Below, piece by piece: positions 7,713 through 61,005 of a DNA stretch of 64,000 nt. A model generated the notes under the pieces. The model made no database searches. It was not told where the DNA came from and saw nothing but the letters and a program-made list of their open reading frames with translations. How positions within the stretch are numbered: position 1 is the first letter of the stretch; the number at the start of each line of letters is the position of its first letter. Made by a program: the position numbers and the translations under genes. The DNA is from Argentina anserina (Eukaryota > Streptophyta > Magnoliopsida > Rosales > Rosaceae), in assembly GCF_933775445.1 (NCBI RefSeq), contig NC_065876.1, positions 9,300,001 to 9,364,000 on the forward strand. The letters run 5' to 3'.

Positions 7713-7951
7713 AAAACAGACTCCCCATTCATTAGATAGAGAAGATGCACCGGTATTAAGTACTCTATGGTTCAGATCTTTCATTCTGAATTAAACATTC
7801 GGAATGAAAATTATAACAATATAAGGTTTTAAAAATCTAAAACAATAAATAAAAATAACAGTTACAAATATTAAATCAAGGTACCCACTCAATGATAACT
7901 CTCAACAGCTTTCCCTCCATTTTTGAGATTGTTGCTCCTAGGTAATTAAAT

Positions 7952-8715
7952 GGTAAAATTGTCAAAATACATCATAAATTTGACTTAAATTGTCAATTTA
8001 CACCCTAAATGCTAAAATTTACCTCCTCAACTTGGCAAAAACTGTCGGTTTGCACCATCACCGTTAAATTTAATATTTTTCATTCAATTCGTGGTCACAT
8101 GTCATTCACATGATGTACATTTTTGTCATTTAATATTTATTTCATTTTTAATGATAAAAATGTACAAGGAATTTAAGTTTTGTACAATTATATTTTCTCA
8201 CGCATTCACTTCACGATATTTATCTTTCTTGATAATTTTTTTTGTTCCAAAATAACGATACATAATTACGACCATAAATGAAGAACTAAAACTAATTAAT
8301 TATGTTTATAGTCTCTAGCAATCGTCAAGTTTACTTCTAAGGTTTTGTTGTTCAAGAGGTTTGAGTTTTGTCTTATGTCCTCACTTAATTAGCTGATGAT
8401 GAATGTTAAGTGTACTAGCGGGAAAGAAATATTAAGAAAAAAAATCATGAAGTAAATGAGTGAACAAATATAATTGTACAAATACTAAATTCCTTGTGTT
8501 TTTTGTTATTAAAATGAAATATATATTAAATAACAAAAATGCCCATCATGTGCATGACATATGACCACAAATTAGATGAAAAATGTTAAATTTAACGGTG
8601 AGGGTGCAAATTGACAATTTTTACCAAGTTGAGGAGGCAAATTTTCGCATTTACAAGTTCGGGGTATAAATTGACAATTTGAGCCAAATTCAGGATGTAT
8701 TTTAGCAATTTTACC
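7952..8715. mobile_element. Long-TIR Mutator-like MITE (foldback), 764 bp
   Basis: The ends are GGTAAAATTGTCAAAATACA and its imperfect inverse. The inverted homology extends about 290 bp inward on each side, leaving a loop of under 200 bp. The element is flanked by a perfect 9-bp duplication TAATTAAAT (7943-7951 and 8716-8724). A 9-bp duplication with very long TIRs is the signature of TIR-MULEs. The arms have diverged by point changes and small gaps, so the insertion is old. No transposase remains. Confidence 0.9.
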
Positions 8716-8724
8716 TAATTAAAT

Positions 8725-23538: not shown

Positions 23539-24406
23539 GTTCCGTATCTTTGTCTCTGCCTATTGCTTCAAACTGTGGAGTTTAAGTTCTGGATTCAATT
23601 TATTTGCTGGTTAGTTCCATTTTTCCTTTTGGTTATGTTCTGGTGTTGTATGTCTGGTTTCAGCTTAGACTGGTAGTGAACAGTTGGTGATACATTAGTT
23701 TAAGATTTGCCTTCTTTTACTGGTTAATGGTAACAAAGGGCGATTGCTTGTGTGGCTTTGTTTCTTTTTGGTTTGGATTTTCGAAATGGATTGCTCACCT
23801 ACAACTCGGTATTTCCCTTTCGTCTGAAAAAATTGTCTTTCTTCTATCATAATTTACTTGCACTTGTTCATATGAAATGCAATATTGGTTTTAATATTAA
23901 ATGCAGCTTTGATATGGAATGCAATACTACAGCTCTAAAATCCCATGAGTGCAAATATACACATATTGCTCTAACTGTAATTCTAAATAAAATCAATCTG
24001 AAAGAGAGTTAAGCATAATAGGAGGCATGATAGGAGGAGAAGATCTAACTGCTTTGATATGGAATGCAGTAGTAATATTGTGGAATGCAAGTTAAATGTG
24101 GAATGCAGTTTCAATATGGAATGATTTTGGTAGCCCTTATTTCAGTAGATTATGCAGAAGCTTATTTCAGTAGATATGAAGACAACCATTTGTCCGTCTG
24201 TTCTTCAATGGTTATGGTTGTAATCAATATGGAGATGAGCTGTTGTGTTGTTCTATTTAGTTACCTTCTAATGTATTTGGTTAAATTTACAGCACTATGC
24301 AATGTATTTACTATTTAGTATGGTTGAGTTTGGAGATGATCATTAGTTTACAGTCGTGTGTACATTGTTTCCAGTTTGCAGCCCCATCCCAATTCATAAC
24401 TCTATT

Positions 24407-24494
24407 GGTTTTAATGCTTGTTTAAGTTTCAAATTTGACATCTCAATTATAGATTAGATTAGTCAAATTAGAAACTTAAACAAGCATTAAAACC
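24407..24494. repeat. 88-nt near-perfect palindrome (hairpin)
   Basis: The arm GGTTTTAATGCTTGTTTAAG and following bases (24407-24439) is inverted at 24462-24494. It gives a stem of about 33 bp with one mismatch and a loop of about 22 nt. It sits in the presumed intron, next to a CCATTGGAGA / CATTGGGGATGCTCC pair (24503-24612) typical of decayed MITE ends. Confidence 0.7.
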
Positions 24495-25666
24495 AAAGAG
24501 TCTCCATTGGAGACTAGATTAGTCAAATTTGCAAAAGTTAAGTTTGCCATGTCATATGTCAAATTTTGAATTTGACAAATAACATTTTGGCATCACCATT
24601 GGGGATGCTCCTAATTTTCAAGCCGTATCCCTCTGCAATTCAACTCTTTTCCTGAAATGAGAGAGAGTGTGTGTGTGGGGGGAGTCCTCATTGGAGCTAC
24701 AGGTTCTAGGAACCTGTGGAACTTCTTTGTGGATGATTCTGATCTAAGATGTTCTATAGGTGGACTGATACAAGGCTATGGTTGATATTACACTATGGTA
24801 GTCTACCTTTGTATTGTTTTCTGCATATGTTTGTTATCAAAGTCCTTTAATTCCCCAGGCCGAGCAAACTTTTGAGGTTTTTATATTCATGTTGCATTTC
24901 ACGCAATTTAGTTATTATCATGAAAGTAGGAAGCCATATTTCTGTGCAGCTACATCCCTTCCCATTCTTTGGTTCCTTAGTTTGATCTGATATATGTCTC
25001 CAGGAGGACTTTATCTGATTAGGACTGACCTTACACTATGACGGGTTAATTTCGTAGTCTACTTTCTAGTTTCTACATATATTTTTATTTAAGCCCTGTA
25101 ATCTGCAAGGTAGGAAAGCTCCGTGTCCTGCAATCCATTTTGCAGTTCACACAGAAATCAGTTCCAAGATAAACAAAAACATAAAAAGCAGTTAATTTGG
25201 AAGTAGGTGTATCTCTTGATGTACATGTCTATATTATCTTAATTTCTATACGCCTGAGGAATGAGTTGTTAGTAAAGAGTAGATATTTCAGTTTTTTTTT
25301 TATGTTTTTATTTGTATTTTTTAAACTGAGTAGAATGTGTTACATCTAACTCCCAGGAGCTTAGTTTTATGTCTCATTGTTACTTTATAATGGAATCCAG
25401 CCCCAAAATTATGTTCGCAAAAGTAGGAAATTTGAGGTTACTGAATGATTGTTGTTTCTTACATATTATATCTATTAGATTATATGTGTGACATCCCGCT
25501 TCCAGTATCGAAGCTTAGTTTTTGTATTTGAGTTACTAAACCTTTTCCTTCTCACATTTTACTTTACGTGGGTTAAAATTCTGTTATATATACATGCTTA
25601 TTTTATTTTATTTTTTAATTTCTGGTCTTATCTTTTGTGAAGAGATAAGAATAGTTTTTTTTTTTT

Positions 25667-42359: not shown

Positions 42360-42543
42360 TGTTCCAGGAGAATTACTATTCTACCCTTATGTGTGTCTTA
42401 GCCTAATAGGTTTCCTGTTAGGAGATAGATTAGCATCTCCGTAATAGATTAGGACTCCAAATCCTACGGGATTGTGGTTTTGTAATGCCTATATATAGGC
42501 CCCCATATCATTCAATAATACACAATTATTTCATCATGAAACA
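42360..42543 (+). repeat. 5' LTR of the copia element
   Basis: 184 bp. By eye it differs from the 3' LTR at about seven positions, mostly C/T or G/A transitions. It contains a TATATATAGG promoter-like box near its 3' third. Confidence 0.93.
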
Positions 42544-48785: not shown

Positions 48786-48969
48786 TGTTCCAGGAGAATT
48801 ACTATTCTACCCTTATGTGTGTCTTAGCCTAATAGGTTTCCTGTTAGGAGATAGATTAGCATCTCCGTAATAGATTAGGACTCCGAATCCTACGAGATTG
48901 TGGTTTTATAATGCCTATATATAGGCTCCCATATCATTCAATAATACATAATTATTTCATTCTGAAACA
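48786..48969 (+). repeat. 3' LTR of the copia element
   Basis: 184 bp, same length as the 5' LTR, preceded by the polypurine tract and followed by the target duplication ATACC. Confidence 0.93.
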
Positions 48970-53291: not shown

Positions 53292-56200
53292 TTACAAGAC
53301 TTGTCTAAGCTTCTGATTACAGTTTGAACTAATGTACAAAGATCTCACACATAAAGAAAGCAAATGAAGAGCAAATGTTTCCCACAATCGCATAACTATT
53401 TCAGGGGGTACAGTGTGTTGTTTCTTAAAGAATTCAAATAGCAACGAAACTACCATGTGTTCGTTACTCAAGGGGCAAAACTTTGCATTGCTGACAAGCT
53501 GGTCTTCTAAGCTATGAGATTCTGAAATTTCTGAAGGTGGTGGGATCTGACGTTCTTCATTAGAAGTTTCTGAATTTCCCCGGTCCTCCTTGGATGGATC
53601 ATCCGGATCTTTTTTGTCCTGATCTCTTTTCTCATTCTCTTCACTTGAGCTCCCACCACCACTACCTCCTTTGGAGCTGCCTGGAACCAAGTCAGGTCGA
53701 GGTTCCACACCAACTCGTCTTAAGTGTAGCTATCCATATCAAAGACACCAGTACAAATTAAAGGTAAAATTGATAAATAGATAAGGGTTATTAATAAAAA
53801 AACAAGACTTGTATAAGGAACATAAAAATTCTTTACCTGAAGATGTAAGTTGACTTCATCTGGGCGAGAAAGAAATGGAAAATCTCCCCCGGTCTTTAAT
53901 TGTGCACGTCTTGCGCCAGGGTACCTTTCACTCAGTTGATCTTTAAGTTGTTGAGGAATCGCACTGTAGTCATTTGTCTTCATTTATGGGAAGGAACAAA
54001 AAGTTTCAGCTGTCAGCGCTTAAAATTAGAACTTTGTCAAGCAAGCTAACTAAAAGATAGCCTTTCAATAGATGACACCATTAATGCAAGAAGGCACTGA
54101 GGGGATGTAGCATATAATCATGTGAGTTAAGCTTCAATTGCAGTCATTAAAAATTCATATTTAAGCACTGATGGAGCAGATATGCACAGCTGATTTCTTT
54201 ATATATATAATATATATATAATAAGGAGGATGTCCAGTTATTCCAAATCTAATGAGATCGTTACACAGATGGTAGCAACATTTATTTAATGATTTGTTTC
54301 CATGCTAACCACTTAACGGAGCAGGTTTACCTGCATGTTGAGATATGTATTTCCCGTGACAAACTTACTAATGGTATGAAAAAGTTCTTAACCAAGTAAA
54401 AAGGGCCACAGAGTAAGTTCTCTGGTGAACTTCTTACGCTACACCCATAATACAATAGAAAAGAGACAGTAGAAGGGAAAAGACTAGGAATTCATACAAA
54501 ATTTTTAATTCTTAGCAAAAAGAAAAGAAAATTCTTAAATTAGTTATAACCCAAAGGGAAACAATGGCTAAACAATCACTTTTTCTAGAAACAAGATTAG
54601 TAAATGCATTCATGTGTAGCAGACGAGGTCCAGATAACATACATCCATTATAGTGATGAATGAGTCTGTGAGCAAAAGAGGTTCAATTGCAGCAGCATCA
54701 GCTGTTAATGTCAACCTGGAAGCCAAATCTTCCCTTGAGAGTGTTTCAACCTGATTTAAAATTAGTTTAGCCATAAATAACCAACACTTCAGCTTCTACA
54801 ATGTTCTTAGTTCATATAGACTAACATCCCTGATATTATCTACTTTCAACAGCATCCCTAACACGTACACCGTTTCATTTTATTTTTCAACAAAAGCATA
54901 AATTAGACATAACTTAGCACAAAACTAATATCAATTTTCACAATATAACGATTTACAAGCAGGACCAGTGATTGTTAAATTATGTTACATTTCTTCATTT
55001 GATATATAGTTATAGTGTAACACTAAAAAAAGATTGACAGACCAGGACAGCCATAGTTGACATCTGTGTACTTCACAATTTTTTTTTAACATGTTCATAT
55101 AAAATTCGAAATAAACTACAAGTAATTAACGAGGATAATTAAGAAGTTCTGGAAGTATTTAAGGAGTGAATTCGGTTGAAATCAACCACCTAATACGCCT
55201 ACAGAATGACAAGACTTCAATCAAAAACCAAAGTGGAGCTTAAATCCAAAATGTAGGCATAAGATTGCTCAGTTCAATCTGTTCTTATCTAAGCATTTTC
55301 TGTCCAAAGGAATCAAGACCAACTAAGTTAACCAAGAGAATTGCTGAGCTGACACTAGAGGAAAGGTTATCGTAATAAAGAACCAGCGAGAAGAACTGAA
55401 ATATACATCAAGATCCATGGCATCTAGGAGTAATATGGACAGTGATAATGAGCAAGATGGCAAAGCCTCTCTACCTGCGAAACAACAAAGTCCACCGAAT
55501 CCGCAATAAATGGCTCGTGGGGTCCATCACGGATGCCTGACAAGACATATCTTTTTAGCAAAAAAGAGGGGGTCCAACTAACTCTGCATAAGAAAATACT
55601 ATGATCAGGCAAGTGATATAATGCCTTCCAAGTGTGATCATTCAAACTCAATAAACTATCCATTAGGGTGTCTATGTAGATACTTCAATCAAATTATCCC
55701 CTCAATCAATTCCCTTATAAAGTGAACTTAATATCGCTCCACGAAAGCAGGGAGAAGCTAAAAGGCGAAATGTAAGTAATGCCCAGTCCCTCCAGGTCTT
55801 CAATACACTCTACCCTCTTAGCTAAAAGAAAAAAAAAAGATTTTATTTCTACAAAAGTAGAAGTCCACAATAAGTGCTACCCATGTTTATCTAAGTCGTG
55901 GTGGTACAGAAAGCCAGGTCATCATGGCATGCATATCCAGAAAGAATGTGAGAATTTGCATGCCTAGCAACACATTTAACAAGAAAGCACAAATTTATTT
56001 AAAGTAAATAAAAATAAAAATTTGTTTGAAGAGGATAAAATTGTATAATCAAGAATCTTTTGCATTGAAAGGGATGAATCTAACCAGTGAAGATCGTGTT
56101 CGGAAAGCAGGGACTCTTTTGAAATAGAAAAGTAACTTCAAATACAAAACCACAAGATTGCTTGGTATTAAGTTTCCAAGCTTATTATAACTGCTAAGCG

Positions 56201-58533
56201 ACAGAACACTTAGAACCAATAAAATGAACTTTAAATGCCAACTTTGAGCAATGCCACCACCATTAATACCCTCCTTCATCCTAGGGTCTGATGACTGATA
56301 AAGAACCAGAGTACGGAACACAAAAACATAAACATACAGCTTAACGTTCAACTTGTTGTGTGACCACTGATGCAAAACTATGTGATAGCAAGTTTAGGAT
56401 TCTTCAAAATTTTATGTAAATATCAGGACGTAATTACCCTGGGACAATACTTATCTGCACCTGAACTAATTAGTGTAAAAAGTTCAAATTAGAAACACAT
56501 ACATGGGAGCCCATGGCATTGCGGCAGAGAACTCGCGTGTGTCCAAAAAGGAATTTGATAGTATCAAAGACCGAACCCGTCTTGGACGATGCTGAGCAAA
56601 AAGTTGAGCCAAAAACCCCCCAAGGGATGTACCGTAAAGATGTATCTGTTCAAAGTTAGAACTGGACTGATCAGTCAACCTAATCTGAGTTAAAAATATC
56701 TAATGCCAAATCAAATTTCACACTTTGTTCGACTCATGCACAGAATATTTGCACTGTTATAAAGTACAGTTGTTCAAGAAAACAAAACTAGATTATCATA
56801 CATAGCATTTCTTATTTATCCCCACAGTCAGCTCTGATCAGATTGCACCCATTTGGATAAGCATGTAATATACAGTGCATCACTTTTTTTTCAATGGTCA
56901 ATCTTACCTCACTAGTGATCCCAGCAATCTAGTTTACCAGATCAGATGATTACACAATGGTATTGTCAAATATGCTTCCCAACTGATTTAAATAGAATAA
57001 TTCATTAATCTGGATAAATCATCTATTTAGGCTTTAAAAATGATTGTGGAAGATATTACTAAAGAATGATGTTATTTTGCCTAGAAATCAAGACACTGTT
57101 AGCTGACGCCCAAAGTCAAAATCTATAACCCTTCACAAGCTACCAATCAGAGATCTCCTTAGTACTTTATAAGTTTAGAATCCTTCATTCAATCCAAAAG
57201 TAAGTATTGAATGAAATGCGGAAGCTAATTTTGGATAAAAAAAGTCAGATATTTTCTTAGTAAAAACAAATAGATGATATCAAGGATATTAAACAAATCT
57301 ATACTGACAGGAGGTGGAATGTTTGGCAGGATTTAAGTGCGCTGACAGTAAACAGTGTGCTTACATGATGAACATCAATAGCATCCAAGAACTTTTCAAA
57401 TGCTGGAACCCATTCTTGGTGATTCCATACACATGGAATATCAACAGAAATTACTCTGTAACCCTGCATAATTGGACCCCAAAAGAAAAGTTTGTCAGAT
57501 GTAATGATTCATTAACATGGAGCTTGAAAATGTTTATTAGCTACATCCGGGTAGTATATAAAATGGTGGAGAGGGGTATTAAATTCAGATAGGTTTTGTT
57601 TGTGCAAGTAAAGACCAATGTTCTTACAAGGTGAAAACAGAGTGCATAGGAAGTATGGAGAGACCACAAAAAGGAACTAGCTAGTCACAGTCTACAAGTT
57701 ACTCAGCTACAGAAGGAAACAAAAGGAACTAGCTAGATATATATGAGCTTGATTGCTCTACTTTCTAAACATCTATTTGATGCAACTCCTGGGGGAAACG
57801 TATGCTACTCGTGCAATATATGCACAGATTGAACTTCTAACCCAAAGTAGCAACGCACTGTTAAATCTAAAGCCAATGGAGGTCAAACATGCATTCAGAC
57901 CGAAGAGTACTTGAAGTAACACAAAAATCTAAGTGCCTCATAACGAACAAAAGAATATCAAAGTCAAATACTGTTGCGCTCTGTAAATGTGACATCGTAT
58001 ACCTTCATGGACAATGCCATGATCTGCTTGTAACAGACATCCGCCGTCCCTGCTGTTCCAGGAAGACAAATAAGTGGAGTTACTGCTTTCGGACCAAAAT
58101 CATAGTATCGCCACTGCTTTGTGCCAATCTGCAAATACACAGTATTTCCATACAAACCAACACATCAAACCACCATTGAACGCATAAGCAGAAAACTCTA
58201 CATCTAAAAAAGGAGAAAACTTTCCACTTGAAAACCAACAATCTGGACAGAATTAGAAGCCTTCCACATTTAAAAACTCAAACTTGAGGCAAACCCATGT
58301 CATATAATTCTCACAACCACAAGAAAAAACATAAACTTGATTGCAGAGAGTGAGACTAACACAGTAACACCAAAACCCAATAAGTAAATGAAGCTAAAGA
58401 CTTAACCTTTACACAAAAATGTAGAGAAAAACGTAAAGGGTTGATCGAGAAGTAGACATACTGGGATCTTGTGAAGAGGAACCTGGGACTTGAAGTAGAT
58501 GTAATCTCCGGGGGCCGAGTAGACGCCTTTCAT
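53292..58533 (-). CDS. Maspardin-like alpha/beta hydrolase (SPG21/ACP33 homologue)
   Basis: Eight exons, complement(53292-53729, 53837-53977, 54643-54750, 55475-55583, 56503-56645, 57365-57463, 58003-58128, 58462-58533), all in phase, give 411 aa. The start [20 protein letters not shown] leads to [14 protein letters not shown], a hydrolase core ([19 protein letters not shown]) and the nucleophile elbow [15 protein letters not shown] with Ser at about 106. Next come [43 protein letters not shown] and the family-typical [20 protein letters not shown]. The tail is Ser/Gly/Asp/Glu-rich. Maspardin localises to endosomal/trans-Golgi membranes in animals, where catalytic activity is doubted; the plant role is unknown. 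Exon 1, intron 1 and most of exon 2 exist a second time, inverted, at 59311-59789. Confidence 0.92.
58051..58529 (-). repeat. Inverted duplication, parent arm (maspardin 5' end)
   Basis: 479 bp from the third base of exon 1 (just after ATG) through intron 1 into exon 2. It is the exact inverse of 59311-59789; no mismatch or gap was found by eye. The arms are separated by 781 bp. Confidence 0.95.
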
Positions 58534-59310
58534 TGCTTAAGTCTATGTGAACCCAAAACCCAAAAGCCTCTCCCATATCAAAAACCAAGACCCATTTATT
58601 CGATTTGATCGATCAGACTCTACACTTTTCTATTGAACTTGGTTTGGTTTGTTTGGTTGCTCATCCTCGTTGTTGTTTGGAATTTCTTTGAATTTAATTT
58701 TGGGGATTTGACCTGATGAAGGACACGTGGCCGGACCCCACTGGTTACAGTCCAATCACTCACAATGCTTCGATGATCTGCAACAGCTCGTCAGAGGTTA
58801 ATGGTAGGCTGAGGCTGGAATTATTGGTTCATTTTGATTGTTTGGTTTGGTGCATCAATAGTAGCATTGTAGTAGATGGATTCCTTAACAAAATATTAAA
58901 ATGATTGTGTGCGCATAATTAAATTGCTAACGAGATGTTGAAGTTCCTTGATTGTTGGTTTGTTTATCATAAAGATGAATGATTAGGAGTATGTCATATG
59001 ATTAGGTTTGTTTTTCTGATGGGAGTATATGACATTTCATAAGATGCTACATTGTTTGCAAGCACTAACACGTAATAAACATCATATAAGGAACTTTTTA
59101 TACGTAAAATTAGTTCTTCAGATTAGTTAAATTCCAATCTGCACCCAGTAAAAATCGAAGCTTTGATAATTGTTGACTTTTCCGGCAACGACAATTCACA
59201 TCCCATCAACAATTAGGTTTTCGTGAATTTGACAAATTTTGAGGATTTTGGTAGATTTAGAGATTTTCCAATCAGATTTTCCAATAAATAGGGCACTCAA
59301 ATCTCTACTC
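58530..59310. other. 781-bp spacer between the inverted arms (maspardin promoter)
   Basis: Holds the maspardin ATG, 5' leader and promoter on the minus strand. It is unique-looking and has no gene of its own. Confidence 0.6.
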
Positions 59311-59789
59311 AAGGCGTCTACTCGGCCCCCGGAGATTACATCTACTTCAAGTCCCAGGTTCCTCTTCACAAGATCCCAGTATGTCTACTTCTCGATCAAC
59401 CCTTTACGTTTTTCTCTACATTTTTGTGTAAAGGTTAAGTCTTTAGCTTCATTTACTTATTGGGTTTTGGTGTTACTGTGTTAGTCTCACTCTCTGCAAT
59501 CAAGTTTATGTTTTTTCTTGTGGTTGTGAGAATTATATGACATGGGTTTGCCTCAAGTTTGAGTTTTTAAATGTGGAAGGCTTCTAATTCTGTCCAGATT
59601 GTTGGTTTTCAAGTGGAAAGTTTTCTCCTTTTTTAGATGTAGAGTTTTCTGCTTATGCGTTCAATGGTGGTTTGATGTGTTGGTTTGTATGGAAATACTG
59701 TGTATTTGCAGATTGGCACAAAGCAGTGGCGATACTATGATTTTGGTCCGAAAGCAGTAACTCCACTTATTTGTCTTCCTGGAACAGCA
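59311..59789 (+). pseudogene. Inverted partial copy of the maspardin gene (exon 1, intron 1, part of exon 2)
   Basis: Begins AAGGCGTCTACTCGGCCCCC, keeps the intron with both splice sites (GTATGT and TTTGCAG), and stops abruptly within exon 2 at CTTCCTGGAACAGCA, before unrelated TGAGCGAC. The retained intron rules out a retrocopy, so this is a DNA-level duplication. The ATG was not copied: the left junction falls immediately after it. The truncated piece is 139 bp upstream of the NYN gene start and could now be part of its promoter or leader. Confidence 0.93.
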
Positions 59790-59928
59790 TGAGCGACTAA
59801 AAACCCAGGCACCCAGCTAAAACCTTTTCTTTCATTGCTATCATTATTCAATTTCACAAAGCTTAGCTCTGGGTTCTTCATTCTTCCTTCCATTCATCCC
59901 AAACCATAACACCCCAACCTCTACCAAT

Positions 59929-61005
59929 ATGATCAAACTTCGCAACTTTTCCATCCCAATTCACCCCAAAACCTCACAAACCTTAAACCCCTTCACTCTC
60001 TTCATCAAACATTCTCACTTCCTATCCAGCCCTCCTCTCAATTCACCCCCCAAAACCTCCCAACCCTGCGTCGCAATCTTCTGGGACTTACAAACCAGAC
60101 CCCCCAAATCCGTCACTCCCTTCGAGGCCGCCGCCCGCCTCATTACAGCCGCTTCTTCCTTCGGCCAAGTCAGGCACATGATCGCCTACGCGACCCCCCA
60201 CGCGTTCAGCTCTGTTCCTCAGGTTGTGGGGAAGATAAGGAGAGAGAGGAACAGGGTCGTGATACGAGACGAGCCCAACGTTTGTAGGGTCTGTGGGAGG
60301 AGGTTTTATACCAAGGAGAAGCTTGTGAACCACTTCCAGGTTCATGAGAGGGAGCACATGAAGAGGCTGAGTCAAATCGAGTCGGCGAGGGGGAGTAGGA
60401 GGGTGAAGCTGGTGGGGAAGTATGCAATGAAGATGGAGAAGTATAGGAATGCGGTTAGGGATGTGATGATTCCGAAACAAGGGAATGGTTTGGTGAGTGA
60501 GCTGAAGAGGGCGGGGTTTCGGGTGAAGACTGCGAGTGGTGAGAGATGTGGAGTTGTGGCATTGAGAGATGACATCGTGGGGATGATGGAGGAGAAGAGG
60601 TTTGAGTGTATGGTGCTTGTTTCGGATGAGAGTGAGTTTGTGGAGGTTGTGATGGAGGCGAGGAGGAGGTGTGTGAGGACTGTTGCTGTGGGGGGTGATT
60701 TGGGAGATGGGGTGCTGAAGAGGGCTGCTGACTCGGGGTTTTTGTGGAGGGAGGTTTTGGTGGGGAAGGCTAAGAAGGAGGCAGTTAAGGTTGTGGGGAA
60801 GTGGAAGGACCGCGATGTGTTGAAGAGGTTGGAGTGGAAGTATGAGCCTGATGAGGATAGGAGGGTGCATTGCTTAGATGATGAAGTCGAGGATGAGGAG
60901 ATTGGGAGTGTTGTTGGTGGGATGAAGGAGAATTGTTTGCGGAATGATGGTAACAGAAAATGGTGGGAGCTTGACTCTGATGCTGATGCCGATGCCGTTT
61001 CATAG
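59929..61005 (+). CDS. NYN-domain (PIN-like RNase) protein with a C2H2 zinc finger
   Basis: Intronless, 358 aa. The N-terminal 45 residues are rich in Ser, Pro, Lys and His with few acidic residues, consistent with an organelle transit peptide. The NYN motif VAIFWDLQTRPP (residues 48-59) supplies the first catalytic Asp, followed by helices FEAAARLITAASSFG and YATPHAF. A canonical C2H2 finger lies at C119-x2-C122-x12-H135-x3-H139. The second half of the NYN fold follows (ELKRAGFRVKTASGERCGVV, CMVLVSDESEFVEVVMEARR). It ends acidic with WELDSDADADA. Relatives annotated as 'putative endonuclease or glycosyl hydrolase' are thought to act on organellar RNA. The codons use G at third position far more than neighbouring genes. 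The 5' flank is the inverted maspardin fragment. Confidence 0.9.
   Translation: MIKLRNFSIPIHPKTSQTLNPFTLFIKHSHFLSSPPLNSPPKTSQPCVAIFWDLQTRPPKSVTPFEAAARLITAASSFGQVRHMIAYATPHAFSSVPQVVGKIRRERNRVVIRDEPNVCRVCGRRFYTKEKLVNHFQVHEREHMKRLSQIESARGSRRVKLVGKYAMKMEKYRNAVRDVMIPKQGNGLVSELKRAGFRVKTASGERCGVVALRDDIVGMMEEKRFECMVLVSDESEFVEVVMEARRRCVRTVAVGGDLGDGVLKRAADSGFLWREVLVGKAKKEAVKVVGKWKDRDVLKRLEWKYEPDEDRRVHCLDDEVEDEEIGSVVGGMKENCLRNDGNRKWWELDSDADADAVS

Follow-up and report, generated by a model that had tools for sequence, protein, structure and literature searches.

An exact inverted copy of the 5' end of a maspardin gene lies ahead of the divergent NYN-domain gene in Argentina anserina

The 64,000-nucleotide stretch of Argentina anserina DNA analysed here, referred to below as the window, contains a maspardin gene and a gene for an NYN-domain protein in divergent arrangement. 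The 5' part of the maspardin gene is present twice, once in its normal place (left arm) and once as an inverted copy (right arm) upstream of the NYN gene, with a spacer between the two arms. The features, in window coordinates, are as follows.

53292..58533, minus strand: maspardin (alpha/beta hydrolase) gene, 8 coding exons, 411 aa, intact
58051..58529, minus strand: left (parental) arm, inside the maspardin gene
58529-58462, minus strand: left arm, part of exon 1, 68 bp, maspardin CDS bases 5-72
58461-58129, minus strand: left arm, intron 1, whole intron, 333 bp
58128-58051, minus strand: left arm, part of exon 2, first 78 bp of the 126-bp exon
58530..59310: spacer, 781 bp, with the maspardin ATG and the region upstream of it
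59106..59267: fragment of an old dispersed repeat, within the spacer; 43 bp separate its end from the copy
59281-59293: TATA-like CCAATAAATAGGG, 17-29 bp before the inner junction, read by eye and not with a promoter tool
59311..59789, plus strand: right arm (copy), maspardin-like, lacking the maspardin ATG
59311-59378, plus strand: right arm, exon-1-like
59379-59711, plus strand: right arm, intron-1-like, GT..AG ends kept
59712-59789, plus strand: right arm, exon-2-like
59789..59800, plus strand: three-codon upstream ORF (MSD and stop), its ATG formed by the outer junction (A from the arm, TG from the flank)
59790..59928, plus strand: 139-bp gap from the end of the copy to the NYN ATG, with pyrimidine-rich stretches
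59929..61005, plus strand: NYN-domain protein gene, single intact ORF, 358 aa

The coding sequences of both genes are open and conserved. The splice sites of the maspardin gene were picked by eye; its product matches Pfam Abhydrolase_1 (E 5e-14), and the nearest named maspardin among the best 120 of 695 matches is that of Fragaria x ananassa (91% identity, 100% query coverage). In the product of the NYN gene, Pfam NYN is the sole domain found (E 2e-07), and relatives of this protein are named C2H2-type or "like AT4G12240". Among the best 120 of 285 matches, it is 77% identical to the proteins of Rosa rugosa and Fragaria vesca, and the position of the start codon is kept in all eight proteins aligned.

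In many eudicots, the two genes seem to have been neighbours for a long time. Counted by eye among the best 120 of the 285 NYN matches and the best 120 of the 695 maspardin matches, where each protein cluster is represented once, the two have locus tags that are adjacent or nearly so in at least nine genomes (Theobroma, Craigia, Nyssa, Dipteronia sinensis, Xanthoceras, Rubroshorea, Pterospermum, Carya and Cornus), evidence that concerns locus tags and contigs. In at least five others (Durio, Liquidambar, Rhamnella, Actinidia eriantha and Castanea mollissima), the two genes are on different contigs, and adjacency is therefore not universal among the genomes listed.

Base-by-base comparison shows that the two arms are reverse complements of each other at 479 of 479 bases. 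In a self-comparison of the window, the match is confined to the arms themselves and extends past them by 0 bases on both the inner and the outer side. When the genome (236.8 Mb, 146 contigs) was searched with the arm sequence, exactly two matches were returned, both at this locus. At the level of the assembly, these results bear out the original prediction, made from the letters of the window, that a segment of the maspardin gene recurs inverted with equal length and without mismatch; the base-by-base alignment that it had called for yields 0 mismatches over 479 nt. It was also right in assigning the arm to exon 1 after the ATG, intron 1 and part of exon 2 of maspardin (base 5 of the CDS is the first one in the arm), and in placing the arms head to head around a 781-bp spacer, which spans the maspardin start region.

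In 20 background stretches (10 kb each, from seven chromosomes, 200 kb in total), no inverted pair reached both 60 bp in length and 98% identity, which argues that the arm pair is not a product of chance. The eight inverted matches listed for these stretches are 73-87% identical, and the next-longest inverted pair within the window measures 307 bp at 82.7%. The exact identity of the arms would also be in keeping with an assembly or consensus artefact, and assembly error was among the options named at the outset. We consider an artefact extremely improbable, since both junctions are clean, the window contains 0 N, and a similar pair occurs in 0 of the 20 background stretches. Moreover, if the assembly is drPotAnse1.1, it was built with 36-fold HiFi coverage and has a QV of 55.3, according to the available part of PMC11162522. 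The same part of that source describes Potentilla anserina as tetraploid and states that contigs from the three remaining haplotype sets were deposited separately.

Which of the arms is the copy would follow from gene integrity: we take the left arm as the parent because the maspardin gene goes on intact past it, so that copying would have proceeded from the left to the right arm. The presence of the intron in the right arm identifies it as a DNA-level copy and not a retrocopy. We suggest that the right arm probably results from a recent templated insertion, with DNA from close by being copied in inverted orientation during repair or template switching, a mechanism that we infer from the sequence of the locus. 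Break repair or replication template switching would have taken the nearby maspardin 5' end as template (a "filler" insertion). In one recent event, 479 bp including the intron would have been inserted in inverted orientation about 0.8 kb away, 139 bp before the NYN start codon. The parental maspardin gene would have been left whole, and the copy would have come to lie ahead of the divergent NYN gene.

Three features are to be expected of a templated insertion, and all are found here: the copy matches nearby DNA exactly, its ends are abrupt, and it bears no signature of a mobile element. Templated or filler insertions at repaired breaks, as the available parts of PMC11724301 and PMC8395108 present them, are alike in that inverted nearby DNA lies between flanks without mobile-element ends. 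They are unlike the present case in length: in the yeast study, as far as its available part goes, inverted duplications at breaks are mostly about 5-34 bp (PMC11724301), and the 479 bp of the copy, being far above this range, count against templated insertion. As for the duplication as such, the exact arms and their abrupt ends support the original claim that the 5' end of maspardin was recently duplicated in inverted orientation.

The absence of differences over 479 bp corresponds to a 95% upper age of about 0.45 million generations, or 0.64 million from the intron alone, assuming a rate of 7e-9 substitutions per site per generation. Gene conversion could make the duplication look younger than it truly is. 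Taken to its end, this argument would have an older inverted duplication held identical by conversion between the arms; close inverted repeats can recombine, and inversions within the VIM2-VIM4 repeat are frequent according to the available part of PMC13213937. We nevertheless regard such a history as improbable, because the self-comparison gave a single match with an exact stop and no similarity past either arm end. Gene conversion is expected to leave diverged edges, and an older duplication with such edges was rejected, as none were seen in the self-comparison of the window.

The junctions also bear on the idea that a transposon (Pack-MULE, Helitron or similar) captured the gene fragment and inserted it, for which we see only a very slight chance. 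Fragments captured by Pack-MULE or Helitron-type elements may include introns. In addition, the bases before the copy, an A followed by TCTCTACTC, are similar to the consensus of a Helitron 5' end. However, no exact target-site duplication was found at the copy junctions (20-bp flanks). The longest words common to these flanks are 3 bases in direct and 4 bases in inverted orientation, and a longest direct word of 3 or 4 bases was obtained in 1518 of 2000 random pairs. Whether 20 or 40 bp of flank are compared, no inverted word exceeds 4 bases, and no CTRRT, the Helitron 3' end, is present within 200 bp downstream of the copy. Neither terminal inverted repeats nor Helitron ends, accompanied by a target-site duplication or an AT target, were found in the 20- and 40-bp flanks and the 200 bp downstream. 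Further points against capture are that the copy adjoins its own source, that the genome search places the right flank (59790-59950) at this one position with no other match, and that the 43 bp at the end of the spacer have no other reported match.

The dispersed repeat in the spacer (59106-59267) has at least eight further places in the genome, which are 70-76% identical over the whole match, with pieces at 70-89%. It was considered as a cause of the duplication and rejected, because it is far more diverged, and thus older, than the arms and ends 43 bp short of the copy. Together, the missing target-site duplication and terminal ends, the unique flank and the diverged spacer repeat favour a templated insertion over transposition.

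The parental maspardin gene is unharmed. The copy ends 139 bp before the NYN start codon, a point absent from the original prediction. The NYN gene is the likelier place of an effect, which could come about if its leader has gained upstream ATGs and an intron that can be spliced, or through an altered promoter or displaced promoter elements. Assuming that transcription starts near the TATA-like sequence in the spacer, the copy contributes two upstream ATGs to the leader if it is spliced (opening the frames MILVRKQ and MSD) and 12 if it is unspliced, compared with 0 when the insert is left out. The last of these copy-borne ATGs is the one formed by the outer junction. The NYN transcription start could, however, sit in the 139 bp that immediately precede the NYN ATG; a start inside 59790-59928 would put the copy in the promoter and not in the leader. 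Overall, the output of the NYN gene is probably lowered or unchanged by the copy.

The original prediction went further and saw in the arms a possible newborn MIR or hairpin-siRNA locus. A 5'-extended transcript over both arms would form a 479-bp perfect duplex and give rise to siRNAs against maspardin. The structural basis is there, in the form of an inverted copy of a segment of the target gene with high complementarity (479/479), and the perfect arms include exon sequence. Moreover, the model of Allen et al. for the birth of young plant MIRNA genes by inverted duplication, as far as it is laid out in the available part of PMC3237417, permits convergent or divergent arms. What speaks against such a locus is the arrangement of the genes. 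Maspardin points to the left of the spacer and NYN to the right, and either arm, followed outward, gives the sense strand of maspardin. With this outward layout, ordinary transcripts would be sense from both arms, and we infer that normal transcription reads the arms in maspardin sense only, with no antisense RNA, no duplex and hence no double-stranded RNA by default. For a hairpin, transcription would have to begin inside one arm or past it and continue through the 781-bp spacer, giving either a minus-strand maspardin RNA starting at 59311 or further right, or a plus-strand NYN RNA starting inside the maspardin gene. A known RNA family at the locus was rejected, since a comparison of the window with Rfam yielded 0 hits at gathering scores, a result that does not bear on siRNAs.

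The closest comparison is offered by the VIM4-VIM2 locus of Arabidopsis thaliana Cvi-0. According to the available part of PMC13213937, this is a head-to-head repeat of about 6.4 kb, made of two whole genes around a 50-bp non-palindromic centre, for which siRNAs have been measured. 5' RACE tags start antisense in the first exon, and the RNA-seq sets covered in that part of the paper contain no transcript spanning the centre. The likeness to the present locus lies in the head-to-head arms, the identical first exon and intron and the natural chromosome. The arm described here is, in contrast, a 479-bp gene fragment with a 781-bp spacer. The start codons are about 96 bp apart in Cvi and about 2.8 kb apart in Col-0 (same part of PMC13213937), and the larger distance of the present arms, compared with Cvi, is a further point against a hairpin.

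In PAI1-PAI4 of Arabidopsis Ws, a natural inverted duplication with a transcribed gene also yields siRNAs, through read-through from an outside promoter (PMC3203196, available part). That repeat is tail-to-tail and is read from outside, whereas the arms here are head to head and the genes run outward. Young plant MIRNA genes (PMC3237417, in its available part) resemble the present locus in being inverted gene-fragment copies beside their source, but they are separate loci, while here one arm belongs to the parent gene and the other is its duplicate. Because the head-to-head VIM4-VIM2 repeat makes siRNAs, we keep a hairpin-siRNA locus in mind as possible, though unlikely; as a description of what lies at this locus, a newborn MIR or hairpin locus is not supported, since by layout neither ordinary transcript would be antisense. 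Among the literature matches listed from one library, which may miss a publication on the locus, no title or abstract mentions AT4G12230 or AT4G12240. Neither Potentilla anserina nor maspardin occurs in the best 8 of 995 matches on these subjects and small RNAs.

The arms might also serve as a promoter switch and silencing cassette. Being perfect, they could let the spacer flip through recombination between them, and siRNAs would be made where a 5'-extended transcript crosses the spacer, acting on the maspardin alleles of the polyploid. We give this scenario a slim chance. If the spacer does flip, one orientation would supply the maspardin ATG and the other would remove it from maspardin, placing a truncated maspardin frame of 50 residues (as read from the sequence) ahead of NYN.

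Taken alone, the templated insertion that we favour would be a single structural variant of a common kind. If the arms are real in the plant, however, the locus would present a very young inverted duplication with source, copy and target site all within 2 kb. It would then provide a clean natural test of siRNA formation from a head-to-head repeat with a promoter-bearing spacer, as compared with the published 50-bp centre, as well as a test of how a templated insertion reshapes the 5' region of a neighbouring gene.

Other repeats were encountered in the course of the self-comparisons. Within the window, an inverted pair of about 300 bp lies at 7946-8242 and 8423-8722 (82.7% identical), and an imperfect palindrome of about 100 bp at 24399-24501 is 88.9% identical to its own reverse complement. 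A pair of 184-bp direct repeats (42360-42543 and 48786-48969) is 96% identical, with starts 6.4 kb apart. The 184-bp sequence is present at 98-100% identity in at least 40 genome places (2021 candidates at first look), several of them paired at distances of 6.3-6.6 kb, and the pair looks like a member of an LTR retrotransposon family with short LTRs. One of the background stretches, C3:20000001-20010000 (10 kb), matches itself throughout at steps of about 145 bp with about 95% identity and is probably satellite DNA.
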